IMG/VR virus record: IMGVR_UViG_3300045747_000527 | Span: 1-64,000 of that record | Source: a virus | DNA: 64,000 nt | Reading direction: 5' to 3' (one strand) | In this document: positions 11,123 to 57,325 of the stretch, piece after piece | How the letters are laid out: every line of letters starts with the position of its first letter | Numbering within the stretch: the stretch's first letter is position 1 | The notes under the pieces: model-generated | Database searches by the model: none | Seen by the model: the letters and a program-made list of their open reading frames with translations, nothing else | What the model was told of the DNA's origin: nothing | Translations under genes and position numbers: made by a program

Positions 11123-11131
11123 GTCGGCCTC

Positions 11132-11872: not shown

Positions 11873-12596
11873 GCGTCATTTCTCCTGTTCTGATTTGATC
11901 TTTACTGTGCTCCAGTACCAAGGCACACCACTGAAGCATCTCTGGTACCGAGAGGCTGTTCTTCATTTCGTTAACGTGAGCACAACACAAAACGATGTTG
12001 TCGTGCGTATATCCTCTCGCGCTGTCTACACGATCAATGCTTACACATTCCGGCCTGCCTGAGCCGTCATACAGCATGGGAATACCGGTATAGTAGCAGC
12101 GCCCTTCCTGGATATTCCAGAGAAGCACCAGGTCTCCCAAGGTCAGAATATTGGAGATGCCTTTGTGCTTTGCGGAAGTTTTAGCCGTAGCCAGCGCCAC
12201 AGCCAGACGGCGCTCTGGGGACTTGGCACTATTTTCCTTTTTCCAAGCTCGCCTACATGGACGACAGTACGCCGCGCGGCCATCCGAGGTAGACTTCTGC
12301 GGGTCAAACTGATTTAGCGTCTTTGGCAACACACAGCGCGCACAGAGCTTTGAGCCGGCGGGTATCGTCTTCTTTTGTTCCCGGATAGCAGCAAGTCGCT
12401 GTGCTTTCTCCAGACCATACTTATTCACTGTCTCGGCAAAATACCTCTCATTGCGCCTACTACGGGCGCACACCTTACACTCCCGCTGCCTACCGTCAGC
12501 CTCAGTAGAGCTACGATGAAACTCGGTAAGTGCTTTGCGTGCCGAACACGCAAAGCACTTCTTCCAGAGAGGTACTATTTTCTGGTCTGAAGCCAT
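11856..12596 (-). CDS. Free-standing HNH homing endonuclease
   Basis: The N-terminal half has two similar zinc-finger units, each with two CxxC pairs about 20 residues apart (CFAC/CKVC and CARC/CRPC). The C-terminal half is an HNH nuclease: CYYTGIPM, then SIDRVDSARGYTHDNIVLCC with the catalytic-region D and N residues, and a final Asn/Lys helix. Such genes cut a cognate site and copy themselves into it. It sits between sheath and tube genes and its end still carries the tube ribosome site, as expected for an insertion that spared tube translation. Confidence 0.8.
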   Translation of the reverse strand: MASDQKIVPLWKKCFACSARKALTEFHRSSTEADGRQRECKVCARSRRNERYFAETVNKYGLEKAQRLAAIREQKKTIPAGSKLCARCVLPKTLNQFDPQKSTSDGRAAYCRPCRRAWKKENSAKSPERRLAVALATAKTSAKHKGISNILTLGDLVLLWNIQEGRCYYTGIPMLYDGSGRPECVSIDRVDSARGYTHDNIVLCCAHVNEMKNSLSVPEMLQWCALVLEHSKDQIRTGEMTHVYDV

Positions 12597-12615
12597 AGTA
12601 CGATTTAACCTAACA

Positions 12616-15933: not shown

Positions 15934-15944
15934 GAAATGCCTCC

Positions 15945-26747: not shown

Positions 26748-26796
26748 TGCATTTTCTCCTTGTTGATTTCTGTGTGTGCTTGCTCTGACCCGACCT

Positions 26797-27246
26797 CTAG
26801 AAAAGAGTCTGGATGAAGCGAAGTTTTTGACCGTTGCGAGCCGGGGTACGTGTGCAGTACCCGATGATGACACCCGAACCTGCCTGACGAATCAGGCCGA
26901 TGCGAGATTGACCCTGGTACGTGACCGCACCAATCTTGAGTGCGTCGCCAGTGACGATGCTGGTGGCCGTCATGACCATGGTGTCTGCCTCATAGGTGGG
27001 CCCCATGATGACAGTCATCTTGCCCGAGGCCTGGACGTCCATACGTCCGCGCTCCGAGAAGCCGACCCAACCAACGCCGCCGGCGCTAGCACGGACGAGT
27101 TTGTAGTTGTCATCGACGAAGTAGAACTCTCCGTCCAGGTATGGGTTGACTTGTGTCGGATCGATGTTGGCTTTGGAAGCCACGGTGAAGTCCCTGCGGA
27201 GAAGTCCCTGCAGTTCTGTCACCATTTCGAAATTGACCGTTGACAT
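26797..27246 (-). CDS. Capsid decoration-like protein (149 aa)
   Basis: A beta-rich small protein directly upstream of the major capsid gene. Repeated Gly-containing strands (KMTVIMGPTYEADTMVM, GYCTRTPARNG) and no helices resemble head-stabilising or decoration proteins. Position gives most of the support. Confidence 0.5.
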   Translation of the reverse strand: MSTVNFEMVTELQGLLRRDFTVASKANIDPTQVNPYLDGEFYFVDDNYKLVRASAGGVGWVGFSERGRMDVQASGKMTVIMGPTYEADTMVMTATSIVTGDALKIGAVTYQGQSRIGLIRQAGSGVIIGYCTRTPARNGQKLRFIQTLF

Positions 27247-34692: not shown

Positions 34693-34716
34693 GGGCCCAC
34701 AGGGGCCCTTTCCTTT
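34693..34716 (+). terminator. Terminator, GGGCCC hairpin
   Basis: GGGCCC/GGGCCC stem, loop ACAG, then TTTCCTTT and AGCC. The tail forms, on the other strand, the TAA stop of the terminase gene. Confidence 0.82.
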
Positions 34717-36550
34717 AGCCCAAGTTCTCCGAGAGCCCTGACTCCTGCACAGGCAGGATGATGTCATCCCTGCGGGTAACCAAAATGGACGCCAATACGC
34801 AGAGCAGGATGGCGTGAAAAGCATCGTCCGTCTTACCTGGTGGCTTCTTGAACTCGTTCATCCTCAGCCGGTCATTGTACTCCGTGAAGATGTTGAGAAT
34901 GTCCTGGCCGTGGGGATTCTGAAAGTCTTCCCAGCAGGGCAGATCAATCTTCTTTGCCTTCATGGCGTTGAAGATGTCGCTCATGATTTCTGTGCGGTGG
35001 CACATGTATCTGAGAAGGCTCGCATCCCAATAGATCTTTTTGCGCTGCCTCGGATTGTACTGGTACTTTGCCACGCGCCGCGGACCAAAGGCCTTGATGA
35101 GCTTGTCGTTCTGGTAGTGACCTCCACCGTAGTCGGTGCCGGTTACCTGGACGTTCAGCTGGCTCAGAATCTGGATGATGCTGTCCAGCTGCTTCTCGGG
35201 GTCCAAGTCTCGTCCCATGAACCGGTGAATCCAGAAGATGGTGAAGTTTCCAGTCCCCAAGTACCCGCCAAGCGCGATGGTGGTGTATGACGCCCGCTCT
35301 CCCGGACCCCAGTCGATGCCGGCGAATATTTGCCTGCCTTGGGCGAGCTCTCTGAACGCCTCGATGTCCACCAGCCGCACCGATGGGTTGCAGATGGCCT
35401 GCAGCTGAGCCCGCGTAATAGGACGAACGCCGGAGTCGTAGGACATGCCCAGCTTCTCGTTCATAAACTGGGCGCGCGAGTACTGCTCCTGTGCTTGAAG
35501 AACCTCTCCCCAGTCAACCCAGGGGACCATGATCTGAGGAATGCGGTAGCCCTCAAATGTGATCTTATCCGTGTTAGCTTCCGCGGGATTCATCGAAGCC
35601 CACATCGCCTGCGGATGCCGAGCTGAGATGAGGTTGCCGCACTTGTCACAGATAAGGCCCTCCTTCCCGATGCTCCGCTCCGTGAGCACGTTCCAGTGCC
35701 AAGTACTGGAGTCGTTGGGACCACCGTGCCGCTCGCAGGGGACCACCCACTCGTTTTGGGTCGAGAATTCGGACCAGTAGTGCTGGATGGTGTTGTCTAC
35801 AGACTTGGGCGTACCGGAGTAGAGGAACAGCTTGTAGCTAGAGTGGAAAGCGCACTGCTCGATGACGGGGATGTTGTCCACCATGATATCTTGGATCTCA
35901 TCGATAAGAACCAAGTCAGCCGGGATACCACGGACACGGTCAGCCGTGAGGTACGCGTACCTAAGTCTGATCTGAGAAAAGTTGATGAACTTCTTGAAGA
36001 AGACGGCTTGGTTTGCTGAGGAGGCGGTGTACGCCTTCAACATTGGCGACGCATCGATAACGTCCTTGATACGGTCATTCGAGAAGACCTTCGCCTGTTC
36101 CGCGGAAGGTGCTACGTACAGCGACCGAAAGTTGTTGGTCAAAGCTGAGTAGCACAAAAGCCGGTTGCCTAGCGTAGTTGATTTCTCGATCTGACGTCCG
36201 CACATAAGCAAAAGCTTCTTGGCGTCAGTATCGTAGATTTTCTGGAGGTACTCCCGCCCCTTGAATGAGAAGTCCGTCACGCGGCCAGCCTCAGGGACTC
36301 TGATGGCTGTCTCTGCAAACTGCGAAGGGGAGACTGAGATCAGCGCATCCTCGGTAGACTCATACGCATCGAAGGCCACCTCCTGTTCCGCCAAGAGACT
36401 CTCAGCAAAGTCCGGGTCATACTCCGGGCTGTCTACGTCGAACACAGAGAAGTCAACGTAAGGGGAGGGCTCTCCTGTGTACGAAGATCCTAGTTTCGTG
36501 TAACGCGCACCTGCCTGTGTTCTGACGCTGTCAAGAGGGACGATGGCCAT
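34715..36550 (-). CDS. Large terminase subunit (TerL)
   Basis: A 611-residue packaging motor. ATPase: Walker A GRQIEKSTT (118-126), Walker B LVLIDE (213-218), SGTP coupling motif (245-248). A zinc-type insertion, C272 with CDKC (301-304), resembles the GpA-like type. Nuclease: GIDWG (D413), TDYGG (D473) and DDAFHA (575-580) give the three acidic metal-binding places. It cuts concatemeric DNA and drives it through the portal. Last gene of the leftward operon that begins with the RNA polymerase. Confidence 0.88.
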   Translation of the reverse strand: MAIVPLDSVRTQAGARYTKLGSSYTGEPSPYVDFSVFDVDSPEYDPDFAESLLAEQEVAFDAYESTEDALISVSPSQFAETAIRVPEAGRVTDFSFKGREYLQKIYDTDAKKLLLMCGRQIEKSTTLGNRLLCYSALTNNFRSLYVAPSAEQAKVFSNDRIKDVIDASPMLKAYTASSANQAVFFKKFINFSQIRLRYAYLTADRVRGIPADLVLIDEIQDIMVDNIPVIEQCAFHSSYKLFLYSGTPKSVDNTIQHYWSEFSTQNEWVVPCERHGGPNDSSTWHWNVLTERSIGKEGLICDKCGNLISARHPQAMWASMNPAEANTDKITFEGYRIPQIMVPWVDWGEVLQAQEQYSRAQFMNEKLGMSYDSGVRPITRAQLQAICNPSVRLVDIEAFRELAQGRQIFAGIDWGPGERASYTTIALGGYLGTGNFTIFWIHRFMGRDLDPEKQLDSIIQILSQLNVQVTGTDYGGGHYQNDKLIKAFGPRRVAKYQYNPRQRKKIYWDASLLRYMCHRTEIMSDIFNAMKAKKIDLPCWEDFQNPHGQDILNIFTEYNDRLRMNEFKKPPGKTDDAFHAILLCVLASILVTRRDDIILPVQESGLSENLG

Positions 36551-40176: not shown

Positions 40177-41340
40177 TTAGTCACTGATCAGAACTTTTCT
40201 AGATAGCATAGCAGGCGTTGGCGGGTCTACCTTGATTCCCACCGTCGCGAGTGTTGTCACAAGGTTCAGCAGCCATGGCACTACGATATCACCATGCAGG
40301 GCGGGATGAGAAGCGTTTGGGCCGCCAAGAAATAAAGCAGAGGCCCCGATTGTCTTCACCCCTGTCCAACTCTCAGTGCTTCCTCCTCCGCCACTGATCT
40401 TATGTTCGCCAGAGATGTCTGTGCTCTGTGAACCTTTCACCGTCGTGGTGTGGTCCTTTCCAACTGACAGAGAGCAGTTCCCTGAGATGGTATTAGTCTG
40501 ATCGCCGCCTACCTCGACTGTCAGATCTGAGGAGTACTTCGTGTACCCGACGCCGGTATTGAAGACTCGCATGACATAGGCTGGCTTCGCACTGATAGTC
40601 TCGCCGGTCGTGGGGTTTATCCCACCCGCAGCCACTACTACTTCGTAGTCTGCACCAGACTTGGCAACCGTACCTACACTGATACGAACTGACGCCTTCT
40701 CATCCTGAGCAGCTTCTCTCGCGATAAGATCGAACTGTACCGCCTGGTGTTGGTTGTCCGGTCCTGTGTCTGCGACCGCAGCTCGCCAGGTCATTGAGCC
40801 ACCAACTGTGTCAAGTTCCCAGTTCTCGCATACATCCCGGATAAGGTTGTTGAGTGGAATGAAGAGGCGCTGACAGATGTCAGAGGCCCCAATCTGCAGA
40901 ACACCACCACGACGCAGGACTAGGAAGTTGTCATCCCTTCCCTGGATATATAGATCTCCAGGGTTCAGAAGAGGTCGTCCAGCGTTGTACCCGCCCATCG
41001 AAGGCTGGTCTGCCGACTGTGGAGAGCCTGATGCCACTGTCATAGCCGGCTCCGGTGGCTCCAAGAATCCCATAACAAACGGAGCCTCCCCGTCTGCTGG
41101 CCAACATACGGCGCAGATAGCACCAAGGTCTGGTATGACCGTGAACCCTTCACCGTTGTTGTAGTGTAGGTACGGGGAGGATACCTGAATACCGGGAACC
41201 AGACGTCCAGTGTACTGTGCTGCCCAGTCCACGGTCTTGTTGACTGGGTTGACGTTAACGATCAACCCAGTTTCTACCCGCGTCTCTCCCGTTACGGTAG
41301 ACGATGCCCTGGAATTACCGAAGCTATACGCGCCAGCCAT
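40177..41340 (-). CDS. Baseplate central spike protein, gp5/gpV/Vgr-like
   Basis: A 387-residue protein. The N-terminal 100 residues resemble the OB-fold of spike proteins (TGLIVNVNPVNKTVDW, then AVCWPADGEAPFVMGF). Residues about 285-335 contain short repeated strands (DLTVEVGGDQTNTISGNCSL, SVGKDHTTTVKGSQS) typical of the spike beta-helix built from VxVxGxxxxxV repeats. Trimeric spikes tip the tail tube and pierce the envelope. Its start codon overlaps the RNA polymerase stop by one base (TGATG). Confidence 0.72.
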   Translation of the reverse strand: MAGAYSFGNSRASSTVTGETRVETGLIVNVNPVNKTVDWAAQYTGRLVPGIQVSSPYLHYNNGEGFTVIPDLGAICAVCWPADGEAPFVMGFLEPPEPAMTVASGSPQSADQPSMGGYNAGRPLLNPGDLYIQGRDDNFLVLRRGGVLQIGASDICQRLFIPLNNLIRDVCENWELDTVGGSMTWRAAVADTGPDNQHQAVQFDLIAREAAQDEKASVRISVGTVAKSGADYEVVVAAGGINPTTGETISAKPAYVMRVFNTGVGYTKYSSDLTVEVGGDQTNTISGNCSLSVGKDHTTTVKGSQSTDISGEHKISGGGGSTESWTGVKTIGASALFLGGPNASHPALHGDIVVPWLLNLVTTLATVGIKVDPPTPAMLSRKVLISD

Positions 41341-44300
41341 CAGTACTCTCCTGGCTTGCCCCTACCAAACTCTGCGGCATAGGCGATGGCAGGGATCGGG
41401 TGTGGGCCGTGAATGTGGGAAGTCCAGCCACGTTGAGCGGCGTCTATGACGGTATCATGCAGCCGCTCATGGTTGAGTTTCGCCATCCAATCTTCTTGAA
41501 CTTCCAGAGGCATCATGTCCACCCCCTTCAGCAAAGGCTTGTGAAGCACTGGCTTCTGCCCCACGGCAAGGGACCTGTTGTGCGCCACCACCTGAGATGT
41601 CGGAGCATAGTCGCCCCGAATGAAGTGGGTAGAAGACCCTGGGTGCAACACCTCCGTAAGATTGGTGACCGCCTTCACCACCACCTCAGCATTCCGCCGT
41701 CTGATGCCCTCACTCTTGTACCGGTCATACAATGCCCCTGCTAGATGTCCCTGTGTGTGCTCGATGCCGGTGAGCTCCAGCAACTCGTGCGGATTGACGG
41801 GCCCTCCAGAAATGGCACTCCCCTTCTTCACATCCATCCCCTTCTTGAGCGGTGACCCGTCGTACATAGGTACGCCGCGCGAGTTGGGAACGTAGTGGCG
41901 GCGACCATCAACGATCACGTCATGACCACCAGCCGGGTCCTTCCGTATCTCCTCCACCTTTCCAGTGACAGCACTGAGCGTAGCCGAACCAGGCAATACC
42001 TTCGGCAAATTCAGCAGGTCCTGCACCTGCTGGAAATCATCCGTGAGACCAGACTTGGACGCAGCCGATCCGCCCGTATGAAAGGCCTTCATGGCGAGCT
42101 GAACCGACCTCTCACCCAACGCCTGACCTGCGAGGATGCCGATGTTCGTCCCCACTGGCGGCAGATGACCGTCACTGTCCAGCCCGAAACACTTCTGGCA
42201 AATACCGGGGCCGTGCAAGCAGCGCAGCGGTGACCTGACCACTACCTTGCCTACCTTATTGTTGCGAAGAGTACTTTTGATCTCAGGAGTTATCAGTGTT
42301 CCAGCCGGGAGGGTTCGGCTGCCAACCTTGATGGGCGCTGCTGTGTACCGGTCAAGTATGTCCCTCTCGTCCACGTCCAAAGAGATACCCTTGTCAGTGC
42401 CGCAGTCATTGTCCTTCACCAGCGTGTCCATCGTGGTGTTCATGACCATCTTGCTGATGTACCCAGGCTCGCTGACCGATTGCACCTTTTGGATCGCCCC
42501 TTTACGAGCGCCGCTCACCGACGTCCAGTACTCTGATACGTCCAAGCCTTCTGCATATGACTTGCGGATAGGCGTGGGGAGCACACGCCCCTTGGCGTCC
42601 ATGACCAGCATCGGAGACATCTTGATCTGACGGAGAGTATCCATACCGGGCTTGACCCCTGCACGGTGCATGGTCATCAAGTTGCTGCTCTCGTCCGTCA
42701 TCTTATCCAGGGCCGCGTGCATCGTCTCTGTAGCCTTCGTGTACGCAGCGATACTGTGCGCGTCTCGTTTCTCCGCGGAGCCTGTGCCCTTCTTGGCCTC
42801 AATATCTGCAACCGCGAGTATCTTGTCCCGCAGCGCTCGGTCTGGGGTCACATCTGACAACCCAAGGGAGAACGAACTCTGAGTAGACCACGCGTTACCT
42901 AGGTCCTTCAGCTTGTTGACGACAACCCCGTACTCGTTCTTGTGCTCCCGTGCCAGCTTGTCCAGCAGCGCATCCTGTGCCTTGCCGTTCAGTACGGATG
43001 TGCTGGTGAGAACCTCCTTGCGCATAACCTCCGGCAGTGCACCAGCCAATAGGAAACGCCCAACCGAAGCCTTGATACCAGAGATTGTGATCACATCATT
43101 CAGGCGCGCTTCCCCCTTTCGTACGGCAGTCTCCACCTCCTGGATGGTCTTGAACGACTTGCCAGTATCCGTGCCGGCTTTCGATATGCCGTACAGGCCC
43201 AGCTTCATCTCGTGCGTGGGTGAGTACATCACCCTGCCCGTAGACGGGCTAAACAGATTGTGGGAGGGCATCATCCCCCGCGCCTCTGTTACCGCCTGTG
43301 CTGACACAGGAACGAACGCACCCATGGCATCACCGTCGAAGTCTGCGTTGAATCCCGACGTAACCAACGGGTGTATCTGGATGGTACGCCCGCTCACGAT
43401 GCGTGGCTTGAACGCCTGCACACTGTATTTGTGCAAGACCGGGTCTCTTTTCACCAAGATAGGTCGGTCAGAGATGACCCGCTCTAGCGCGCGATCAACC
43501 ATCTCTCCGCCCTTCTCAATCTGCGCACGGGCTGCCAGTGGAGAGATGCCCTGCAAGTTGCGCAACTCCTTGATGATGAACGGTTTGTAGAGCTCGATAG
43601 CCGCGGGCTTAGGGATACCCACCTCGTCCAGACCCAGTGAAGGTTCGGGTACGATGGTGGAGCGCATCGTTAGATCTTGCTTCCGCTGTATCAGCTTGCT
43701 CTGGAAGAAGCCCTGTTTCGGCGCACCAGACTTCTCCCCTGTCTCAGTATCCACCACTCGCTTGCCGGCTATGATGTCCAAGATGCCGCGACGAACCTGC
43801 TTAGGGTACCCGCCAATACCAGTCAGGGCGTGCAGACCATCGTGGATTTCCTCACGCAAAGCAACCTTCGCCTCATCATCGTCCGGGATAAGCGGCGACA
43901 TCTCCTTGTACTTCTGCGAAGACAGGTGAATGTACTTGTACAACCCGTTCAGATCATCCTCGCTGATGCGCTTGCCATCCGAGACAGAAAGCGGCCGCAT
44001 AGCCGGGGGCAAGATGGGCACGTGGCTCATCATGTACGCATCTTGCGGAGTCAGCTTTGCCCTCTGAAGGGCAGTCAAGAACTTGATCGTCTTGTTCGCG
44101 TCGTCCAGCTTGGCCCCCTTCAAAGCGGGCTTCTCAATCTCAAGCCGAGCAGCCGCGAGTGCCTTGTCCACGCTGATGTTACCAAGCAGGTGGTTCACTG
44201 CCTTGCCGCCCACCATTGCCCCTGGAGATTCTACGGGAACTACCTTGCCTGTCTTATCCACAGCGACTCGGCCGGCGACCAAGTCAGTGTACGTGGTCCC

Positions 44301-47300
44301 CTTCATGCCGAGTAACGTACGAGTTGCTCCCGCGAACAGAGGATTGGGGAACGGCTCCGGCAAAGTCATGTGCGACCACATGGTGCCGTCCAAGCCGCCG
44401 GTAATCCGCGGGTCGAAGAGGCCATCCTTTTCGGGCACCATGTTCTTTGCGCGGACCCATTTGGCAGGGTTTTTGATCTCCCCGTTACTCTGCTCTAAAA
44501 CCTGCTTGTCCGTCATCGGCACCATCGTGAGGTTGCTGCCCTCCTTCTTGACGTTGACCCCGACACCCTTCAGGTACGCCATGAACTTGTTGTAGGAGAA
44601 CGTAGGCCGCGGAGCCGGAAGCATCTCACCTGCCTGAAGGGCATGCCAAAACTGGTCGTGCTGACCTGCATCGCTCTTCATCGTGTACATCTCGCGCAGG
44701 TTATGGACCGCGCCATGGGCCAACATGGCGTACAACCCTAGCGCGCCCAGCGACTGGGCTCCGTGTGGGCCACCGCCCTTAGGCACCATACTGCTGTCGT
44801 AGGCGTAGCCGGGGCCGCCGGCGCGAGCAATCATCTTCTTGTCCACCTGGTGAACCAGCTTGACGATGTGTTGTGGGCCCACCAGCACCTGACCCATGAC
44901 CTTCCCGGTCGTAGGGTCTACTATGTCCTCCTTGTCCGGAAGTCCGTGCGCCTTGAGCTCGTCTGTGACTTTTTGGTGCAGGTCTACGCCAGGCTCGAAG
45001 TTCTTAATGAAGTAGGTCTTGCCGGTCTTCTCTGCAATCTTTCCGGCAGAGACCTCCAACAGCTGTCCCAAGTTAGTGCGGCCGGGAACACCTGCAGGGT
45101 TAAGTAAGATCTCCGTGGGCCTGCCATCCAAGGTATGTGGCATCTCGTGATCGGCAAGGATCTTAGTCACGATCCCCTTGTTTCCGTGGCGACCTGCTAA
45201 CTTATCCCCGACCTCCATAGGTTGGAGTGTCTTCACGTGGACCGCCACAGCGTGGCCTGTCTTGGACACCTCCTGGACGATACCTGGGTGGTCTGCCTCC
45301 CACTTCATCGAGACGTCCTTGAACGGCTTAACGATGGACTTGTGCAGCTTGGACAGGTCCGCGTCTTCCCGGCGCTCGTTTTCGTTCTTCTGCTGAAGGG
45401 CAGCGATCAATGTGTCGCCTGGCATGACGATGTGTCCTTCGCGAACAACGCCGTCATCATCCAGCTTATCCGCCTGCTCCTTGTTCAAGGCCGCGGGTGC
45501 ATAGGCACGAAACTTCCTCTTGTCTAGGACATGCCCGGTATCCCGGCTGATCTCATGGCGGTACAAGTGCTCTGAAGACAGCTTCTTCGCCGCGGTCTCG
45601 CTGATGACAACGCCGTCCTCGAAGTTGTATCCCTTGTACGGCATGTAGGCCACGCGCAGATTAGTGCCCAGCGCCAGGTTGCCGCCCTTAGTGTAGTTGG
45701 TGTCCGCTACCACCTGGCCCTTCGTAACCTTGTCGCCTACTCCTACAAGAGGCTCTGAGTGGATGAACACACGGTCCGTGTTCAGTGGGAAGTTATCGTA
45801 GAGCTGGACCTCATGCTTCTTCCCCTTGACGTCCTCAATGATAATCCCGTCCTTCTTGATCTTGGTGACGACACCATCATGCTGGCTGTTGTGACTAGCG
45901 TACGCGCCCACTATCCTCTCGAAGCTGTCCTTACCCGCCAGGCTCTGCACCAGGGGCGCTTCCCTATCCTTCAGAGAGATGGCTTGCTCCATGTGCCGGC
46001 CCGCCATAGTAGTACGGTTAGGGTGGTCTGCTCCCATGAACGGGATCATATTAGTGGACGTAGAAAACAGCTGGATCGGGTCAAGCATAACGTAATCCGC
46101 TTCGTGCAGAGGCGCAGATACGATTTCGTTACCCACGCCACTCATGCGGATGTTCTTGGCTACCGCTACCGGCTTGCCCTTAGCCCACGTAACCTGATCT
46201 GGCAGCACCACCTTGGTGCGCATGACCTGACTAGGTGTGATCTCAGTCTGCTTGCCCGTCTTTGTGTCATAGACCCGCATGGTAATATCGTGGCCGCGCT
46301 TGCTGATACCTACGGGCATTCGCAAACTGATGCCGACATCCTGTCCTTCGGACGTGTGCAGCGGGTCCATGAACCCCATGTGTGACGGGTCTACTAGCTT
46401 AGCGTCGTCCGACACAACGTGAAAATCTGAGATGCCTCCCTTACCCATGATGGTGGTTTTCATCTGGTTAGAGATCATCTCAAGCGGGTTCAGCTGACTG
46501 GGTGTGTTTGCCAAACCGCTGTTGCCCGTGAACAAGGACCTTACGGACTTGTTGAACACGTCGGGGCCAATGATATCGCGGATGCCTCTGTCTGGTCGGT
46601 CGATGGTGTTCTTGACCTTACGTGTGATCTCTCTGGCTCCGTTCTGTACCCGCTCCGCCACAAAGTCCTCCACAGAATGCAGGTCCTTGAACATGAGTGA
46701 GTCGCGCGGGTCAGACTTGGCTGTGCCGCGGGAGATGCCTAACAGCTTATTCGACGCCGCTAAGATCGCTTCCCCACTAGCATTCGCGTATGGATGCCCG
46801 AGGGTGACCTGGTTGACGTCAGGGCGCGATCCAGTGTTCTGGAACACCTCCTGGGTAACAGACTGTGCTGTCTCGGGGTTAGGCGCCTTTTGCCCCGTAG
46901 CTATTTCGTGGAATCTAGACAGAGTCTTGTTCGCGTCAGCTGCGTTCGCGTCTACGATCTCCTTACCCCAGTGTTTCTCAAGTTCATCTGGGTGAATCCC
47001 CAGACCCTGTAGCATCGGAGCCAACGGCAGGTGCTTGCCCTCGTACTCCATCTGGAACTTCTTGCTCTCGGGATCGAAGTGCAGCTTGAACGGGCGCCCC
47101 TTCACTCCGGCAGTGTTGAAGCTGGTCTCCAACGACCCGTCATCCTTGACCATGGAGTATGCACCAGCCTTCAAACGCCACTGGTTGTCTACCTGGTACT
47201 CCTTGCCATCGATAATGTGGCTGAGCCTGCGCGTACTCTTGGGCAGGTCCATCAGCTTGATCTTCTTTTTCTCGATAACGTGGCCAGTAGCGTTATCCTT

Positions 47301-47519
47301 CAGAGCAATCGTAGCCTGCACCGGCACGGTCCAGCTTTTCCCCTGAATCTTGGCTTCCTTCTGCGACCGGATATCATCCAGGTCCAGGTTGTCTGGGATG
47401 CTGATATCGTGAAGCTCAAGAGTTCGCGTGTTCCCTATGATGGGGAAGATGCTCTTGGTTGCCTCAGTTACCTTGTCCTTCAGTACGGTGAAACCAGTTT
47501 CTGGGTTTAGACGCGCCAT
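41340..47519 (-). CDS. Single-chain DNA-directed RNA polymerase, fused beta and beta-prime
   Basis: One 2059-residue chain. Beta part, about 1-1000: IPFMGADHPNRTTMAGRHM (492-510), GYNFEDGVVISE (630-641), GDKLAGRHGNKG (771-782), ILLNPAGVPGRTNLGQLLE (804-822) and the KLVHQVDKKMIARAGG clamp segment (887-902). Beta-prime part, about 1010-2059: GFFQSKLIQRKQDLTMRS (1270-1287), NADFDGD (1391-1397; Asp 1393, 1395, 1397 bind the catalytic magnesium), and trigger-loop region GILAGQALGERSVQLAM (1794-1810). Cys 1706, 1767, 1774 and 1777 form the conserved inner zinc site. The N-terminal beta-prime zinc domain is absent. No stop or frameshift separates the halves. GAGGAG precedes the ATG. It should transcribe phage genes; where and with which factors is open. 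Confidence 0.93.
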   Translation of the reverse strand: MARLNPETGFTVLKDKVTEATKSIFPIIGNTRTLELHDISIPDNLDLDDIRSQKEAKIQGKSWTVPVQATIALKDNATGHVIEKKKIKLMDLPKSTRRLSHIIDGKEYQVDNQWRLKAGAYSMVKDDGSLETSFNTAGVKGRPFKLHFDPESKKFQMEYEGKHLPLAPMLQGLGIHPDELEKHWGKEIVDANAADANKTLSRFHEIATGQKAPNPETAQSVTQEVFQNTGSRPDVNQVTLGHPYANASGEAILAASNKLLGISRGTAKSDPRDSLMFKDLHSVEDFVAERVQNGAREITRKVKNTIDRPDRGIRDIIGPDVFNKSVRSLFTGNSGLANTPSQLNPLEMISNQMKTTIMGKGGISDFHVVSDDAKLVDPSHMGFMDPLHTSEGQDVGISLRMPVGISKRGHDITMRVYDTKTGKQTEITPSQVMRTKVVLPDQVTWAKGKPVAVAKNIRMSGVGNEIVSAPLHEADYVMLDPIQLFSTSTNMIPFMGADHPNRTTMAGRHMEQAISLKDREAPLVQSLAGKDSFERIVGAYASHNSQHDGVVTKIKKDGIIIEDVKGKKHEVQLYDNFPLNTDRVFIHSEPLVGVGDKVTKGQVVADTNYTKGGNLALGTNLRVAYMPYKGYNFEDGVVISETAAKKLSSEHLYRHEISRDTGHVLDKRKFRAYAPAALNKEQADKLDDDGVVREGHIVMPGDTLIAALQQKNENERREDADLSKLHKSIVKPFKDVSMKWEADHPGIVQEVSKTGHAVAVHVKTLQPMEVGDKLAGRHGNKGIVTKILADHEMPHTLDGRPTEILLNPAGVPGRTNLGQLLEVSAGKIAEKTGKTYFIKNFEPGVDLHQKVTDELKAHGLPDKEDIVDPTTGKVMGQVLVGPQHIVKLVHQVDKKMIARAGGPGYAYDSSMVPKGGGPHGAQSLGALGLYAMLAHGAVHNLREMYTMKSDAGQHDQFWHALQAGEMLPAPRPTFSYNKFMAYLKGVGVNVKKEGSNLTMVPMTDKQVLEQSNGEIKNPAKWVRAKNMVPEKDGLFDPRITGGLDGTMWSHMTLPEPFPNPLFAGATRTLLGMKGTTYTDLVAGRVAVDKTGKVVPVESPGAMVGGKAVNHLLGNISVDKALAAARLEIEKPALKGAKLDDANKTIKFLTALQRAKLTPQDAYMMSHVPILPPAMRPLSVSDGKRISEDDLNGLYKYIHLSSQKYKEMSPLIPDDDEAKVALREEIHDGLHALTGIGGYPKQVRRGILDIIAGKRVVDTETGEKSGAPKQGFFQSKLIQRKQDLTMRSTIVPEPSLGLDEVGIPKPAAIELYKPFIIKELRNLQGISPLAARAQIEKGGEMVDRALERVISDRPILVKRDPVLHKYSVQAFKPRIVSGRTIQIHPLVTSGFNADFDGDAMGAFVPVSAQAVTEARGMMPSHNLFSPSTGRVMYSPTHEMKLGLYGISKAGTDTGKSFKTIQEVETAVRKGEARLNDVITISGIKASVGRFLLAGALPEVMRKEVLTSTSVLNGKAQDALLDKLAREHKNEYGVVVNKLKDLGNAWSTQSSFSLGLSDVTPDRALRDKILAVADIEAKKGTGSAEKRDAHSIAAYTKATETMHAALDKMTDESSNLMTMHRAGVKPGMDTLRQIKMSPMLVMDAKGRVLPTPIRKSYAEGLDVSEYWTSVSGARKGAIQKVQSVSEPGYISKMVMNTTMDTLVKDNDCGTDKGISLDVDERDILDRYTAAPIKVGSRTLPAGTLITPEIKSTLRNNKVGKVVVRSPLRCLHGPGICQKCFGLDSDGHLPPVGTNIGILAGQALGERSVQLAMKAFHTGGSAASKSGLTDDFQQVQDLLNLPKVLPGSATLSAVTGKVEEIRKDPAGGHDVIVDGRRHYVPNSRGVPMYDGSPLKKGMDVKKGSAISGGPVNPHELLELTGIEHTQGHLAGALYDRYKSEGIRRRNAEVVVKAVTNLTEVLHPGSSTHFIRGDYAPTSQVVAHNRSLAVGQKPVLHKPLLKGVDMMPLEVQEDWMAKLNHERLHDTVIDAAQRGWTSHIHGPHPIPAIAYAAEFGRGKPGEY

Positions 47520-47635
47520 GTGCTCCTCGCGGTTGGTCTTCGGAGATTCTGCAAGCTCCTACAACTCCTACCAAAATACCAGATTTTGGGGGCGCTAGGG
47601 AATGAAACCCTGCAAGAAGGCCCTCGCAGGCACTG

Positions 47636-47662
47636 AAAGCGCAGATCATAAGTGGGTATAAG
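47636..47662 (+). promoter_or_regulatory. GAAA-N16-GGTATAAG promoter-like element
   Basis: CTGAAA, 16-base spacer, GGTATAAG, in the divergent space (47520-47712) between the RNA polymerase gene and four small rightward genes. A short CCTGC/GCAGG hairpin lies just upstream. Confidence 0.75.
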
Positions 47663-47712
47663 ACAGGTAGAGGACGAGAACAATACTCGTACCCAATCAA
47701 GGAGGCGCCAAC

Positions 47713-47838
47713 ATGTACCCGGAAAATGAAGATGCCAGTGGCCAAGACGATGACGAAATGGACGAGGAGCCGACGAATACAGGAGAGGCGCTAGAGGCGG
47801 ATTTCTTCCAGCAATTCGACAAGGACGACGCTGGATGA
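47713..47838 (+). CDS. Very acidic micropeptide (41 aa)
   Basis: A short protein with about 17 Asp/Glu residues and only one Lys (MYPENEDASGQDDDEMDEEP...). The ribosome site AAGGAGGC is excellent and the next gene starts within its stop (ATGA), so it is likely real despite its size. It is first in the unit divergent from the RNA polymerase gene. Acidic peptides of this type can mimic DNA or bind basic protein surfaces; no known family is recognised. Confidence 0.7.
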   Translation: MYPENEDASGQDDDEMDEEPTNTGEALEADFFQQFDKDDAG

Positions 47839-47942
47839 GATTCTTTTGGATCTTCATGTTGTCTGTGCTGACAACAATGATCACAGAAATAATCTGTGAT
47901 CTGAACTGGGCGCGCGCACAGCGCGGTGACTCATGTTCATGA
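47835..47942 (+). CDS. Small membrane protein (35 aa)
   Basis: Residues 2-21 (RFFWIFMLSVLTTMITEIIC) form a membrane helix. ATGA overlap with the acidic peptide gene, and overlap with the next start, fit a coupled operon. Too short for family assignment. Confidence 0.6.
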   Translation: MRFFWIFMLSVLTTMITEIICDLNWARAQRGDSCS

Positions 47943-48421
47943 AGATCCTGTCCACAGAAGCCTTATGTATCTGTGGAAAGCGGCTCGGTGAGGACACACT
48001 CGTTCTCATCGAGTCCGGCCAAATGTTACCGAGCAAGAAAGATAATCGGTTCTTACGCTTTCACCCGGACTGGAGTCTGCCTGCAGACAAATGGAACGAA
48101 CCGGGTGACCCAGAGAGCGTGCTACGCAAGGTAGTGCACTTCGAGTGTCTCAGAGAACGCTTCAACATCACAGACAAGACCTGGAGGGGAGACCCACAGG
48201 TGAACGAGTGCCACATCTGTGACAGAAGCTTTCTCTCCTGTAAATGGGCTCATCGATACACGGTGGGCGAGATCGTAAATGGCATCTTCGAACAAGATCT
48301 AGAGATGCCTAATTGGAAGGGTATCGTGTGCAGCTTTTGCGCTGAGGTAATAGCGCAAGACCCGCCAGCGATACCAGAGATCAAACAACCCACGAGAGGG
48401 CAACTCTCGCTCTTCGAGTGA
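47933..48421 (+). CDS. Cys-rich unknown protein (162 aa)
   Basis: Several Cys pairs: CICG at residues 12-15, CHIC in the middle, CSFC near the end, suggesting one or two zinc sites. Two ATGs are possible, two codons apart; the second overlaps the previous stop. Ends in QLSLFE. Function unknown. Confidence 0.62.
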   Translation: MFMKILSTEALCICGKRLGEDTLVLIESGQMLPSKKDNRFLRFHPDWSLPADKWNEPGDPESVLRKVVHFECLRERFNITDKTWRGDPQVNECHICDRSFLSCKWAHRYTVGEIVNGIFEQDLEMPNWKGIVCSFCAEVIAQDPPAIPEIKQPTRGQLSLFE

Positions 48422-48438
48422 CACAGAAAGGAGGCCGC

Positions 48439-48846
48439 ATGTCTAATCAACCGGAACGGAAACCCTTCCCAGCTAGTCCCCCACCAGAGTTACGTTTCTT
48501 CAGGGCAAGTCCGGCGGCCTCCGAGGTCGTCAAACAGAACTTCCTAGACCTAGTACACAAAGAAACAGATCTGACCATAAACGCATTCCTCAGGCTCCAA
48601 AGCCTAGAACAGAGGCTGGTCTACTGGGTAAACGTGGAGGTAGCTCTCGGCAAGTCAGAACACCCGACGTACTACTGGTACCCACGGGACAAAGCCAAAA
48701 AGCTGGTAGAGGAAACGAAGCTATCCCCAGACTACATAACGTACAGGCTGATCAGAGAAGCCATGCAGAACACCAACGAGGCCGGGCATGAGGATTTCCG
48801 CCGGCTCGTCGAGCTGATGTTCAACCCACAGAAGTGTACTCGGTAA
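48439..48846 (+). CDS. Unknown protein (135 aa)
   Basis: ATG after AAAGGAGG; the in-frame GTG seven codons earlier overlaps the previous gene. Disordered Pro-rich N-terminus followed by a helical domain. Its stop abuts the stop of the convergent portal gene with no gap and no terminator. Not recognised. Confidence 0.62.
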   Translation: MSNQPERKPFPASPPPELRFFRASPAASEVVKQNFLDLVHKETDLTINAFLRLQSLEQRLVYWVNVEVALGKSEHPTYYWYPRDKAKKLVEETKLSPDYITYRLIREAMQNTNEAGHEDFRRLVELMFNPQKCTR

Positions 48847-50862
48847 CTAAACCAGCGCGGCCTCTACACCGCGTCTCGGAGCTCTCTGCTGTGGCAGGGG
48901 TCTCGCTGAGGCGGAAGAGGCTGCGCTGGGGCCGTTACCCCCACTTGCCATTAGCCCTAGTACGGCGCTGTAAAGCTCCGGGCTCGCTGTCTGCAGACGC
49001 CCCAGCACCTCCTGTCGGTTACCCATAGGCACCTGGGCCACTCTGTCCGCCAGCTTACGTGCTGTCACCAAGAGCTGAGCGTCAGCTCCTGACCCGCCGG
49101 AAGGTGCACTCTGGAGTTCGAGCGGAGACTTCACAGCCTTGGGCATATCTAGGACTGTGGGGTCCCGCGGCGTAGGCTGCAGGTCCGGGTTCTCTGGCTG
49201 TGGCTGCCCAGTCTGAGCTGCCATCTGGTGATCCATGATGTCCTTCTGGACCTCAGCCTGGAACGCACCCTGATCTTTGTTGGCCTCATTCTGCAGAGCC
49301 AACTGTTCAGCCATCGCCTTATTCTGCGCCTTGGTCTGCCACTTCGAGGTAACCATCGCAGCCTCGCCTTCGATGTCTGCCTGAAGCAAACGCTGCTTCT
49401 TGGTGACGTTCGCGCGACGAGCCGTTTCCATCTCCAGAATCTTGTCCTCTTTCTGAGAATCAAGATCTGCGTCTGCCAGCAAAGTTTCGTCAGACACCTT
49501 GCCTGCTTGTGCGAGCTGGAAGAGGTACGCCTTGCGCTGAAGATCGTCCGCCATCTTGAAAGGCTTGAACCGGGCACGAACCGGGGCCCACCCCAAGTAG
49601 GAAGATGTGCGCTCAATGATCCAATGGAGCAGCGTCTTGTGGTCTGTCAGATAGCCAAGGTGCATGTTCTCCAACATGCGCATGCTGACGTTGGAGCCGC
49701 TGTACGAGAGACCACCAAAGATCAGCTCTACAGGCACGCCCATGCCCGCGATGATGTGCTCCGACCACACACGAATCTCCTGGCTAAGGAGCATCGCCCG
49801 GCCGTCACCACCGATGGTCTGCTGCCCGATGGGCAGAGACATGATCGGAATATAGTTGTTATCCGCACGCCACTGCCGAATCTCCTGTGCCACCTGATCT
49901 CGCCAGTCAGCCAGGTTCACGCTGGAGTACGGGTCAGACGAGGCAGAGCCAGCCTGCGGGAACAACACGCGCAAAGGAACGATGTGCTCCATCGCGATGC
50001 TCTCCTGTGCCTTGCGAAGAATCTGCAGGTAGAAGGTGTCCTTCAGTACCGGCAAGATCATAGGCGTTCCCCAGCCGCGGTCCTTGCCCGCGAGAGTTGG
50101 ACGCTTGAAGTGGAAGATATTGTCTCGGCTGAAGACGACTGCTTTCTTTAGCCTAAGCGCCTCGATGAACAGCTGTGGCACCGTCTCAACCGCGGACTTC
50201 TTGCCGATAATGACGTCGTTCTTCAGCTGCACCGGGATGGTGTAGTAGTACTCGTACTCGCCGTTGATGTCATTGTACCGAATGTCCACGTCCTCCGGGT
50301 TCCACCGGATAAGCCGGATACCCTTCGCCGCCTTGACGTAGTGGTCCCGCACCTTGCACGGCCCCATCTCGCCGCACTTCGGGCAGTTCCAGTGGAACTC
50401 GAAGTTCATGAACCGGTAATCTGCGTGAGCCGCTTCCTTCTCGTAGTTGCAGTTCTTGCAGATTAAGATCTTAACGAACGGGTAAAAGATGCTGACCAGA
50501 GCGTTGCCGTAGACGTAGTAGTCCAGGCCAACCTCTATCTGAAACGCACGGTAGCGCAGCTGCTCACCCAGGAAGGCAGACCACCGCTCTTTGTGCTCCA
50601 GCCTGTCCGTATCCAGGATGATATCTGTGACTGGGTACTCGGCCATCTTGGAGGCCACTGTGTTGATCAGCGGGTTGACCAAGAAATAGTACCGACACCA
50701 CCGGAACATCTGCTTGACGGTGGCCGGCAGGTACGTCTGACCAATGTCAAAGAATGGACTCGGGTATTGGAGACCCTGGTCGCCCGAGCCCCCGATGCGT
50801 CCGCGAGTACGAGAGAACCTAAGTGCGGAGGACGCGAGGTCCCCAGAACCCATGAGGGCCAT
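48847..50862 (-). CDS. Portal protein
   Basis: A 671-residue protein with portal features: N-terminal wing with YLPATVKQMFRWCRYYF, a conserved core GMGVPVELIFGGLSYSGSNV followed by long helices that line the channel, and a Gln-rich C-terminal barrel/tail. An insertion with CKNC and CPKC, about 24 residues apart, is a probable zinc site. The dodecameric portal is the DNA entry point and terminase dock. Last gene of the leftward F block. Confidence 0.8.
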   Translation of the reverse strand: MALMGSGDLASSALRFSRTRGRIGGSGDQGLQYPSPFFDIGQTYLPATVKQMFRWCRYYFLVNPLINTVASKMAEYPVTDIILDTDRLEHKERWSAFLGEQLRYRAFQIEVGLDYYVYGNALVSIFYPFVKILICKNCNYEKEAAHADYRFMNFEFHWNCPKCGEMGPCKVRDHYVKAAKGIRLIRWNPEDVDIRYNDINGEYEYYYTIPVQLKNDVIIGKKSAVETVPQLFIEALRLKKAVVFSRDNIFHFKRPTLAGKDRGWGTPMILPVLKDTFYLQILRKAQESIAMEHIVPLRVLFPQAGSASSDPYSSVNLADWRDQVAQEIRQWRADNNYIPIMSLPIGQQTIGGDGRAMLLSQEIRVWSEHIIAGMGVPVELIFGGLSYSGSNVSMRMLENMHLGYLTDHKTLLHWIIERTSSYLGWAPVRARFKPFKMADDLQRKAYLFQLAQAGKVSDETLLADADLDSQKEDKILEMETARRANVTKKQRLLQADIEGEAAMVTSKWQTKAQNKAMAEQLALQNEANKDQGAFQAEVQKDIMDHQMAAQTGQPQPENPDLQPTPRDPTVLDMPKAVKSPLELQSAPSGGSGADAQLLVTARKLADRVAQVPMGNRQEVLGRLQTASPELYSAVLGLMASGGNGPSAASSASARPLPQQRAPRRGVEAALV

Positions 50863-54628: not shown

Positions 54629-54654
54629 AAAAAGCTGTGATTCGTCGGTATAAG
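54629..54654 (+). promoter_or_regulatory. AAAAA-N13-GGTATAAG promoter-like element
   Basis: AAAAA, 13-base spacer, GGTATAAG, then T-N4-TGATC. It heads the replication block and lies in the 167-base divergent space next to a leftward gene. Confidence 0.78.
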
Positions 54655-54695
54655 TCCTTTGATCTAGTACCCAACTACTAACGCCAGGAGACCCA

Positions 54696-55073
54696 ATGTC
54701 ATTTGCCGACCGAATCGGAGTATCTGCCCCAGTAGAGAAACCCAGCTGCTGGGGAAACAAGAACGCCTTTGACCCGGAGGATAGCGACTGCTCTGAGTGT
54801 AGGTTCCAGAACAGCTGTCGCCAAGAAGTAGGCGCCAAGCAGCGCGTCTACCAGGTCGGGGTCAACCAAGCACCACGACCATCCATTCCGCAGACGTCCT
54901 ACCGCCCCAACTACCAAGCACACCCAAACGACACGTACCCAACCTGGGCTCCGGGTCCCACGCACGAAAATGACCGACCCCTAGCTCGACTCGCAAAGGA
55001 TGTTGCCGTAGGCGGCCTCCATGGATTAGGCCTACAGTTCGTTCGGTTCTTCTCCGTGTGGAGAATGAAATAG
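54696..55073 (+). CDS. Cys-cluster protein (125 aa)
   Basis: Cys at 18, 32, 35 and 41 (CWGNKNAFDPEDSDCSEC...SC) form a small metal-binding unit; this CWG-AFDP-C..C pattern occurs in phage proteins of unknown role near replication genes. The middle is Pro/Tyr-rich and disordered; the end has a short helix. ATG follows CAGGAGA. Confidence 0.6.
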   Translation: MSFADRIGVSAPVEKPSCWGNKNAFDPEDSDCSECRFQNSCRQEVGAKQRVYQVGVNQAPRPSIPQTSYRPNYQAHPNDTYPTWAPGPTHENDRPLARLAKDVAVGGLHGLGLQFVRFFSVWRMK

Positions 55074-55081
55074 GAGACAGT

Positions 55082-57325
55082 ATGAACAGAGATCCAGACC
55101 TCGGCTACTACGGGCGCAACCTGTGGTTGCCTAAGAAACACGTCAACGTCCGCAGTGTCAAAGCCGGCCTGGAGTTCCCCGTCATGGGGGAGAAAGGAAT
55201 CGAGTACCTCCAGCTGTGGACAGATAGGAGCACGCATCTTGTAGTACCAAGGGAGTTCATCCGTCGAACGATGTACCCGTCACTGCCGTTCAAGATCGTT
55301 CCGGTCCTTCCTGCATCATACAGGCAGGTAAAATTCAAAGAGAACATCACTCTGGACATCAAGGACCCCACCCAGGACATCCAGAAGAACGCGTTCAAAG
55401 CGTACATGGCTGCCGACTGCGGCATCCTGAACCTAGCCTGTGTCTCGGGAAGTGCCCTAATCGACCTGAATAGAGCGGGTAAGGGCTTCAGCATAAACCT
55501 GCGAGATGCCTACGAAAGGTTCAACGGATTAGCCGCAAAGCACAACTGGGATCAAACAATACCCACCTTCGTGAGATCAAATAAGGGAAAACAAGTAGGG
55601 CTACAGAGAGTGGCGGCCATGCTCTACAAAGGCAAGCGCCGTACGTACACGCTGCGCCTAAGAAACGGAATGACCTTACGTGCTACTGGAGATCACGAGA
55701 TACAAGTCGAAGAAAATAAGTACGTCCCACTGCGCGAACTCGCTCCTGGAGACTCCGTACTGATAGACTCAGATCGCACAGAGTCCATTCGAAAGCCAAA
55801 AGAGGCGTATCGGAGGCTTAGCTGGTACCCCAGTCACCCCTTCGTACGAGTACAAAAACGAACAAGACCCTCAGGCAAGATAGACCTGTGCTGCCAGATA
55901 GAAGAACACCGCATTGTGGCTGAGTGCGCCCTCAACAAAATAGGAAGCATCAAGGGGTATCGGGCCCTGTTCAAGACAGGCAAGATTGCGGGACTGCAAT
56001 TTATCGATCCTGCCCTTTTCCACGTACATCACATCGACGAGAACAAAAGAAACAACTCCCCGGACAACCTAGAGATACTGCCGGCAGAGGAACACAGAGC
56101 CCACCACTCTATGGGGGCCGAGGCATTTGGATACGGAATACCAACAGCTAGAGAAATAGAGTCCATCACTCCCTTTGGGATGGAAGACGTCTACGACATC
56201 GTGTGTGACGATCCGCACCACAACTTCACGGCTAACAAGATCATAGTACACAATTGTGGCAGGGGCAAAACGGCGCTGACTCTCAAGCGAATAGCAGCAC
56301 GAGGAGTACCCGCCCTCGTGATCATGAATAACACCACACTCATAGGGCAGTGGGGAAAAAGTATTGAACAGTTCTTGGAGGTGGAAGGAGGCGTGGGCAT
56401 AGTCCAAGGCCCGCCCGATACCTGGGACTGGCACGACCGGGGCATCGTGCTGGCCTCCCTCATGTCCGTGGCCATTCGGTACCAGGAGTTACCCGTTGGT
56501 TTCTCCTCCTACTTTGGTGACATCTACTACGACGAAGTCCACCACTTATCTGCTGAAGTGTTCTCCCGTGCCGCGCCCATGTTCTACGGCAAACGGTACG
56601 GGCTGACTGCAACCCCAAAGAGAGAAGACGGGCTAGAGCTGGTGTACCAGTACAACATCGGCCCAGTATTCCATCGATACTTGATCCAGGACCTGACTCC
56701 GAAAATCTTCTTCCACTTGAACCCAGTCAAGCTGAACATGCTCAGTGCGGATGTGAAGTTTGCCATCTCAGACAAGAACGGCAAACCCTGCCTACCTAAG
56801 CTGCGGTCGTACCTGGGCACCATGCCGGAGAACAATAGGTACATCGCCAAAGAAACCAAACGAGCCCTGGCCAAGGGCCGCAAGATACTGGCTCTGAGTC
56901 ACAGCGTAGACCAGCTCGTCACTCTCCACAAAATGTTCAGAGGGTCCGGGCTCTGCATAGGCGACGTAAAGGACATCAACCTTCGTCTGAAGGCCCTGCG
57001 GGAATGCCAATTGACCTTCGGGACACTCGATCTAGTGCGAGAGGGGCTAGACGAAGACACGCTAGACACAATCTTCTTCCTCACACCGTTCGGGAGCAAG
57101 GACATAGTAGACGGGGGCAAGAACACTTTCCAGCAGGGCATGGGGCGTGCTCTTCGCCCACGCAAAGACAAAAGGCAACCTGTGATCACGGTATTCGACT
57201 ACCTGTACATCCCTAAGCTGCACCAGCAGTGCAACAAAATGAAGCAGTTATTGAAGGAGTGGCCTGTCGATGAGGGCGGTCCATTTGAGTTTGAGGTAAT
57301 CAAAGCGTACGAGGAGATCAAATGA
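55082..57325 (+). CDS. SF2 DNA helicase, interrupted by an intein
   Basis: The 747-residue precursor contains a 272-residue intein; spliced length is 475. The spliced protein has helicase motif I ACGRGKTAL, motif II DEVHH, motif III TATP and motif VI QGMGRALRPRK, the order of SF2 enzymes such as UvsW-type and type III restriction helicases. It probably unwinds or remodels DNA forks. Start ATG is 5 bases after TAGGAGA; an upstream GTG lies in the previous gene. The intein splits the ATP-binding loop, so unspliced protein should be inactive. Confidence 0.82.
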   Translation: MNRDPDLGYYGRNLWLPKKHVNVRSVKAGLEFPVMGEKGIEYLQLWTDRSTHLVVPREFIRRTMYPSLPFKIVPVLPASYRQVKFKENITLDIKDPTQDIQKNAFKAYMAADCGILNLACVSGSALIDLNRAGKGFSINLRDAYERFNGLAAKHNWDQTIPTFVRSNKGKQVGLQRVAAMLYKGKRRTYTLRLRNGMTLRATGDHEIQVEENKYVPLRELAPGDSVLIDSDRTESIRKPKEAYRRLSWYPSHPFVRVQKRTRPSGKIDLCCQIEEHRIVAECALNKIGSIKGYRALFKTGKIAGLQFIDPALFHVHHIDENKRNNSPDNLEILPAEEHRAHHSMGAEAFGYGIPTAREIESITPFGMEDVYDIVCDDPHHNFTANKIIVHNCGRGKTALTLKRIAARGVPALVIMNNTTLIGQWGKSIEQFLEVEGGVGIVQGPPDTWDWHDRGIVLASLMSVAIRYQELPVGFSSYFGDIYYDEVHHLSAEVFSRAAPMFYGKRYGLTATPKREDGLELVYQYNIGPVFHRYLIQDLTPKIFFHLNPVKLNMLSADVKFAISDKNGKPCLPKLRSYLGTMPENNRYIAKETKRALAKGRKILALSHSVDQLVTLHKMFRGSGLCIGDVKDINLRLKALRECQLTFGTLDLVREGLDEDTLDTIFFLTPFGSKDIVDGGKNTFQQGMGRALRPRKDKRQPVITVFDYLYIPKLHQQCNKMKQLLKEWPVDEGGPFEFEVIKAYEEIK
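55439..56254 (+). mobile_element. Intein with HNH endonuclease domain
   Basis: Residue 120 of the precursor is Cys1 (CVSGSALIDL, block A); TGDH gives the block B His; the end VYDIVCDD, then NKIIVHN with terminal His-Asn, is blocks F and G, followed by Cys as the +1 residue. All splicing residues are present. Residues about 196-223 (HVHHIDENKRNNSPDNLEI to AHH) are an HNH nuclease core, so it can probably home into empty alleles. The insertion point is directly before GRGKT of the helicase Walker A motif, a typical intein site. Confidence 0.9.

Follow-up and report, generated by a model that had tools for sequence, protein, structure and literature searches.

We analysed a 64,000-base stretch of viral DNA, hereafter the window, which comprises bases 1-64000 of the 191,220-base virus record IMGVR_UViG_3300045747_000527 (G000). 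Positions 41340-47519 of its minus strand encode a single-chain beta/beta-prime RNA polymerase (RNAP) of 2059 amino acids (aa), identified by its open reading frame (ORF), Pfam domains, alignment to RpoB plus RpoC, and AlphaFold2 (AF2) models searched with Foldseek. An original prediction, made from the letters alone, had described one uninterrupted 2059-residue frame with a beta half followed by a beta-prime half. Both points are borne out: the frame runs from 47519 to 41340, the plus strand over the same interval is closed by many stops, and each half is polymerase by Pfam (Rpb2 and Rpb1 domains) and Foldseek. The gene is present as one copy in the whole 191,220-base record, and a second contig (L009) matches residues 1632-2059 at 100% identity.

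Pfam places beta domains in residues 342-952 (Rpb2_6, 4e-61, residues 547-903; Rpb2_3, 2e-6; Rpb2_7, weak) and beta-prime domains in residues 1151-1960 (Rpb1_2, 6e-27; Rpb1_5, 3e-19; Rpb1_3, 2e-8; Rpb1_1, 7e-8). A phmmer search of PDB matched 202 sequences, with beta-prime chains at the top (E 1e-109). AF2 was run on two overlapping parts of the chain with 26-row alignments of clade members. For residues 1-1110 (pLDDT 78.4, pTM 0.72) the top Foldseek match is bacterial beta (RpoB; E 8.9e-72, TM 0.72), though domain placement in this part is loose given a root-mean-square deviation of 14.5 A; for residues 960-2059 (pLDDT 78.7, pTM 0.63) it is bacterial beta-prime (RpoC; E 1.7e-62, TM 0.80).

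We aligned 15 single-chain members jointly with 11 bacterial RpoB+RpoC pairs, E. coli and B. subtilis among them. The chain is colinear with RpoB+RpoC from near the beta N-terminus through the beta-prime C-terminus and is missing the large inserts of E. coli. From alignment and AF2, the beta-like part (residues ~1-996; 44532-47519, minus strand) comprises protrusion/lobe, fork, the double-psi beta-barrel DPBB-B, flap and a C-terminal clamp piece. Its end, GVNVKKEGSN, directly abuts the beta-prime start, LTMVPMTDKQVLEQSNGEIK, and the beta-prime-like part (residues ~997-2059; 41343-44531, minus strand) thus follows with no linker.

The catalytic elements, all on the same minus strand, lie where the bacterial subunits have them, with DPBB-A carrying DxDxD and DPBB-B two catalytic lysines, colinear with RpoB/RpoC. 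The lysines, K773 and K781 (E. coli beta K1065 and K1073), fall in GDKLAGRHGNKG (45174-45209), and the Mg-binding triad D1393/D1395/D1397 falls in NADFDGD (residues 1391-1397; 43329-43349); both motifs are intein sites in relatives. The alignment also locates the bridge helix region (GARKG..., residues 1670-1695; 42435-42512) and, together with the residue map, the trigger loop (42069-42125), in which M1810, K1811 and H1814 correspond to E. coli M932, R933 and H936. The trigger-loop segment QALGERSVQLAMKAFHTGG is present, with Q1807, M1810 and H1814 matched. In E. coli numbering, the residue map finds K1065, K1073, E813, D814, R1106 and R678 of beta, and D460, D462, D464, R425 and H936 of beta-prime, invariant in the clade, and M932 nearly so. 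By its sequence, then, the window protein is a complete cellular-type (two-barrel) catalytic core in one chain, and it is predicted to be active.

Other parts of the chain depart from the bacterial pattern. The N-terminal zinc-binding domain of beta-prime is excised at RITGGLDGTMWSH (deletion point 44376-44402, minus strand, by alignment and residue map): 15/15 aligned members have a gap at E. coli C70, C85 and C88 and another residue at C72. The second zinc site (C1706, C1767, C1774 and C1777; 42189-42404, minus strand, from the same two sources) is retained in the window protein. The flap tip (residues 714-735; 45315-45380, minus strand), placed likewise, is present with a clade-variable sequence, and the clamp-helix tip that docks sigma in bacteria is also altered and variable. 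In the residue map, the match to the rifampicin-contact cluster (residues 331-358; 46446-46529, minus strand) has altered contacts (Q513N, D516S, H526N, S531T and others), the rifampicin contact R687 is likewise changed (R687E), and natural insensitivity of the fused enzyme to rifampicin is therefore predicted.

Relatives, inteins and gene order

Two scans of viral contigs gave 14 and 76 loci, with some contigs in both. The complete enzyme is a single intein-free frame in 53 loci, 39 of them less than 90% identical, and most of the remaining loci either keep a single frame despite in-frame inserts or run into contig ends. The exceptions are L087, with a break near residue 300, and L107, in which three pieces (7902-16280; 6160-6927) represent beta-N, beta-C/beta-prime-N with an insert, and beta-prime-C. 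The hidden stop or frameshift near residue 1000 that the original prediction named as a possible refutation is ruled out by the 53 full-length intein-free loci, each one frame across the junction. Because the 39 diverse full-length homologues from metagenomic phages are single frames, assembly error is excluded for the clade. That an assembly or sequencing error fused two genes in the window has a negligible chance of being true, given the identical joint in 53 other full-length loci and the presence of the joint in the sequenced isolates Arash and D69.

In-frame inserts occur at six positions, all of them active-site motifs: TPEG (~392), GYNFED (~630), GDK/GRHGNKG (775), GNKG (784), NADFDGD (1397) and FH/TGG (1815). 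They contain LAGLIDADG and intein-splicing domains (Pfam). Intein-bearing loci are L007, L008, L011, L045, L084, L092, L098, L103 and L113, with a maximum of three inteins per chain (L103, 3371 aa). Among the NADFDGD inteins, some do not have the customary Cys/Ser at the N-terminus or have Asp as their last residue, which makes their splice borders uncertain. Inteins seated exactly at active-site motifs mark strongly constrained sites. Together with the invariance of the catalytic residues in 15 diverse members, this makes an inactive polymerase, structural or degenerate, a very improbable reading of the chain, even though the protein's high spectral counts in Arash particles are of the kind typical of structural proteins.

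Two contig scans of 84,980 bacterial and archaeal GTDB genomes returned zero relatives, so homology indicates no host. The cultured relatives are Salmonella phage Arash (OQ632216) and Vibrio phages D69, D148 and D181. One protein of the Arash and D69 enzymes joins beta to the N-terminal stretch of beta-prime; the remainder of beta-prime is a separate protein encoded some distance off. The Arash enzyme consists of gp206 (1525 aa) and gp216 (606 aa), is cut after the beta-prime catalytic barrel and has the motif AADYDGD. phiKZ-like phages and cyanobacteria are split after the same barrel (PMC7598289). We considered a split intein at the Arash/D69 break and rejected it, as the halves, inspected by eye, have no intein-like sequence there. 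The view that phage polymerases are usually split needs qualification, since two cultured phages, Arash and D69, have the beta/beta-prime joint too, in proteins labelled 'beta' or 'hypothetical'.

Trees of beta and beta-prime were built by a quick method with 11 bacteria and no archaeal outgroup; Helicobacter was not sampled, and the polymerases of Yersinia GN1 and Cobetia Carin-5 were too divergent for the beta tree and were excluded from it. Both trees place the single-chain members and Arash/D69 on one side (SH-aLRT 100) and the bacteria on the other (100). Support for grouping the single-chain members is 99 in the beta-prime tree and just 77 in the beta tree. Conclusions on branching depth are limited by the quick method, the missing outgroup and the long branches. 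Identity of the phage chain to the sampled bacteria is about 26-30% throughout. The joint is common to single-chain members and Arash-like phages, and the cut in the latter may be secondary. The fused enzyme had been called unusual; this stands insofar as it is a cellular-type fusion in a phage, but it is no one-off, since the trait is common to a widespread phage clade. Bacterial rpoBC regions are filed under phage names in INPHARED (for example OR846602, OR844998 and CAKLQH020000005) and occur likewise in PLSDB 'plasmids' such as NZ_AP028965; these served as bacterial references.

The gene lies in a minus-strand structural block, where its compactness and location agree with what had been predicted. 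A gp5-like baseplate hub/spike protein (40177-41340, minus strand) begins with an ATG that overlaps the RNAP stop (TGATG). A homologue of this protein is downstream of RNAP in 71/74 loci, the exceptions being L107, Arash and D69. On the other side, a small minus-strand ORF of 125 aa (47507-47884), for which we found no homologue beside the RNAP of relatives, overlaps the RNAP start by 13 bases. Beyond it lies a portal protein homologue (48847-50862, minus strand; 33% to Arash portal gp204), found upstream of RNAP in 67/71 loci. Between RNAP and portal are also two small plus-strand ORFs (47933-48421 and 48418-48846) with their own promoter-like box at 47655. The order portal-small gene-RNAP is retained in Arash and D69. 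The terminase large subunit (TerL; 34715-36550) shares the strand and gene block of the RNAP; the major capsid protein (MCP; 25626-26873) and the tail sheath protein (12616-15933, C-terminal part matching sheath PHROGs) are also on the minus strand. The phage is contractile-tailed, as had been proposed, judging by its sheath, baseplate hub, TerL, protease and capsid proteins.

Proposed sigma partner, promoter box and packaging

A search with the Arash sigma-family protein gp10 found a homologue in 17/18 clade records, including G000:118657-119508, which encodes 283 aa. The G000 homologue lies in the tail-gene region, where other ORFs match Arash genes near gp10. All eight scanned family members (8/8) exceed the Sigma70_r3 cut-off, regions 2 and 4 are weak singly, and the family profile matches SigA at E 1e-16 across regions 2-4. 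Searches with PF04542/PF04545 alone had given only a FliA-like gene in G000 (~158 kb), with seemingly poor conservation, and it was the gp10 query that exposed the conserved family. Other sigma types are scattered, with strong matches over cut-off in 6/19 records; a second sigma occurs in G000 (the FliA-like gene, by sigma-70 domain profiles), Arash and D69. In nine phage records we detected neither alpha (PF01000; 13/14 control genomes positive) nor omega above cut-off (PF01192; 14/14 controls positive), although highly diverged forms of either could escape these profiles.

The word GGTATAAG emerged as a repeat in the intergenic DNA of G000; the record has 33 copies against 2.7 +- 1.1 expected, and many copies lie 12-60 nt upstream of non-structural genes. 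AA stands at -18/-17 in 31/33 boxes, G is favoured at -20, and a T-purine follows at +13/+14; the -35-like element, its distance from the box and the placement of the start match those of sigma-70-family promoters. The last box position is an invariant G, and GGTATAAT has 0 occurrences in G000. Within the window, putative early promoters of the form AA-N16-GGTATAAG-N5-TR lie on the plus strand at 1962-1994 (upstream of ORF 2012-2506), 3858-3890 (upstream of ORF 3914-4429), 54629-54661 (upstream of ORF 54696 and a helicase gene at 55058-57325) and 47637-47669 (inside the minus-strand ORF 47507-47884, upstream of the plus-strand ORF 47933-48421). No GGTATAAG box was found upstream of the window's minus-strand structural block. 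Boxes at 34423 and 36573 (plus strand) stand within that block, where antisense transcription is possible.

In the early region of Arash, GGTATAAG occurs 21 times on the coding strand versus 0 on the opposite strand. Nineteen of these boxes are within 90 nt upstream of genes, and the word is also the commonest 8-mer there when searched de novo. The Arash boxes have a T-purine start as in G000 and no matching -35. Counts of the pattern exceed a reversed-pattern control in several clade members (G023, 13; G020, 9; G027, 9; G011, 7), and phages with split RNAPs have 0-1. This conservation across phages suggests that GGTATAAG is the promoter of the fused enzyme. With a dedicated sigma-family protein and a common promoter box accompanying the enzyme, the earlier expectation of promoter-independent transcription is probably wrong.

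The box might instead be read by host RNA polymerase with the other phage sigma (the FliA-like protein of G000, or Arash gp196) and be unrelated to the fused enzyme. A second sigma does exist in G000, Arash, D69 and some others, Arash sites are often TGGTATAAG, which resembles an extended -10, and the spacing and start position are bacterial-like. We nevertheless find this explanation rather doubtful. Phages whose polymerases have diverged widely, a Salmonella phage among them, have an identical box; gp10-type sigmas occur much more often than strong matches to other sigmas; and position -7 is always G, never T.

Evidence for packaging comes from Arash. In the published virion proteome (PMC10585845), gp206, annotated only as 'beta', is the most detected protein, with 3516 spectra, 128 unique peptides and 100% coverage. 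Corresponding spectra are 1210 for gp216, 467 for the sigma gp10, 877 for the portal and 1333 for MCP; the other sigma, gp196, does not appear in the virion protein table. Our alignment identifies gp206 as beta plus beta-prime-N. Calculated per residue, those published spectra come to 2.31 for gp206, 2.00 for gp216, 2.00 for gp10, 1.51 for the portal and 4.34 for the capsid protein. Although crude, this length normalisation fits an equimolar complex of core and sigma. For gp206 in the virion, the Arash authors suggest either early transcription or carry-over (PMC10585845).

We propose that a virion-carried single-chain core with a dedicated sigma transcribes the early genes, and consider this the best explanation at a probability of roughly two in three. 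The fused RNAP would be made late, together with portal, hub and terminase proteins, and be packaged with the sigma-family homologue of Arash gp10. Both would enter the cell with the phage DNA, and early transcription would begin at GGTATAAG promoters, whose T-purine start lies some 7 nt past the box. The covalent joint probably stands in for the alpha dimer, the scaffold on which beta and beta-prime are kept together in bacteria, and the first phage genes would probably be readable without the host enzyme. Injection, early transcription, the pairing of sigma with core and the joint as a substitute for alpha are steps that we infer. A stricter form of the proposal, for which we see an even chance, is a two-protein holoenzyme, core to sigma about 1:1, that is carried into the cell and, free of alpha, omega and the host, alone reads the lineage-specific GGTATAAG promoter.

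Several observations weigh against this proposal. Beta-prime is divided between two proteins in Arash, whose stoichiometry may therefore not apply to the window phage, and particle mass spectrometry can include abundant carry-over, as the Arash authors point out (PMC10585845). Packaging was seen in Arash only, by others, and would be extended by homology to a phage known from its sequence. Several clade members have 0-2 boxes, implying that the box is altered or lost in some of them, and the FliA-like second sigma of G000 could read the promoter box. Finally, the residues of the clamp helices where sigma region 2 docks in bacteria (R275, E295, I291, N294) are not conserved, so binding of a gp10-type sigma would need a changed interface; for the same reason we dropped an argument for sigma use from a canonical docking surface on the core.

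The enzyme could also be a non-virion polymerase, made in the cell for middle or late genes, with the early ones left to host RNA polymerase. Its gene sits among late structural genes, packaging is known from the relative rather than from the window phage, and jumbo phages do have non-virion enzymes (PMC7598289). We judge this unlikely: core and sigma are near-equal in the Arash virion proteome, G000 holds no second RNAP copy that could be the virion enzyme, and the strict early box comes without a host-like -10. A packaged fused core would also offer an explanation for why a protein called 'RNAP beta' tops the Arash particle proteins, a question that the authors leave open.

Comparison with known polymerases

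To our knowledge, RNA polymerases that use sigma have a multi-subunit core assembled on alpha. Helicobacter and Wolbachia RpoBC carry beta and then beta-prime in one chain; they are cellular enzymes with full-size subunits and a zinc-binding domain, and they work with alpha, omega and host sigma. The window chain has the same beta-beta-prime order but lacks the N-terminal zinc domain, and it differs from the bacterial alpha2 beta beta-prime omega core in that no alpha or omega genes were detected in the nine phage records.

Both barrels also lie in one chain in crAss-like gp66, P23-45 gp64/gp96 and YonO. The crAss-like gp66 has a virion role. So does P23-45 gp96, and phage single-subunit RNAPs cluster with the QDE-1-like branch (PMC10770324). 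For the crAss RNAP, no similarity to RpoB/RpoC profiles can be read (PMC7481178); the window protein, in contrast, matches Rpb2_6 at 4e-61.

The phiKZ/AR9-type enzymes resemble the window protein in being two-barrel and free of alpha and omega; they are used in virions, and their beta-prime split site resembles that of Arash/D69. They differ in comprising 4-5 polypeptides, in having no sigma gene and in being far more diverged (PMC7598289). Phage multisubunit RNAPs studied so far work without sigma (PMC7598289, PMC13282480). The mReC phages, like the window phage, are tailed and encode a cellular-type RNAP that branches outside bacteria (PMC7481178). They are described as encoding beta and beta-prime subunits, with fusion unmentioned (Weinheimer & Aylward 2020, PMC7481178). 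Their MCPs match PF07068, whereas the window MCP has no Pfam match at E 0.05; some overlap of the mReC set with the single-chain clade is possible.

Closest are Arash, D69, D148 and D181, which share with the window phage the clade, the joint, the portal-small gene-RNAP order, the gp10-type sigma and GGTATAAG. They differ in the beta-prime cut after the catalytic barrel, as established for Arash and D69, whereas the window phage encodes the entire enzyme as a single chain. The accessible text of the Arash paper names gp206 'beta' and does not mention a fusion (PMC10585845).

In the literature searched, we met no account of a phage RNAP that is both cellular-type and fused, nor of such a one-chain core with its own sigma. 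Within the cellular-type branch, one paper refers to 'derivatives with fused DPBB domains' that its text does not name, and its figure or supplement may hold an earlier notice (PMC10770324). Known enzymes, then, include fused RpoBC in cells, phage enzymes that are split, and QDE-1-type phage RNAPs of one chain; what appears new is a phage core of cellular type, in one chain and with a sigma of its own. If the proposal is true, this would be the smallest sigma-dependent cellular-type polymerase, built from two genes, and would allow a direct test of the need for alpha, omega and the zinc-binding domain.

Other genes of the phage

The plus-strand ORF at 55058-57325 encodes a ResIII/SF2 helicase with an in-frame HNH intein (Pfam Intein_splicing, HNH_3). 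Outside the window, G000:189872-191212 (plus strand; L024:7872-9212) matches adenylosuccinate synthetase at 1e-60, and the phage also has a family-A DNA polymerase. Phage PurZ-type enzymes yield 2-aminoadenine DNA; the match, which could be PurA or PurZ, makes a modified G000 genome possible. A 1396-aa tail-region protein with collagen triple-helix repeats is encoded at G000:103903-108093 (minus strand; L020:1903-6093).

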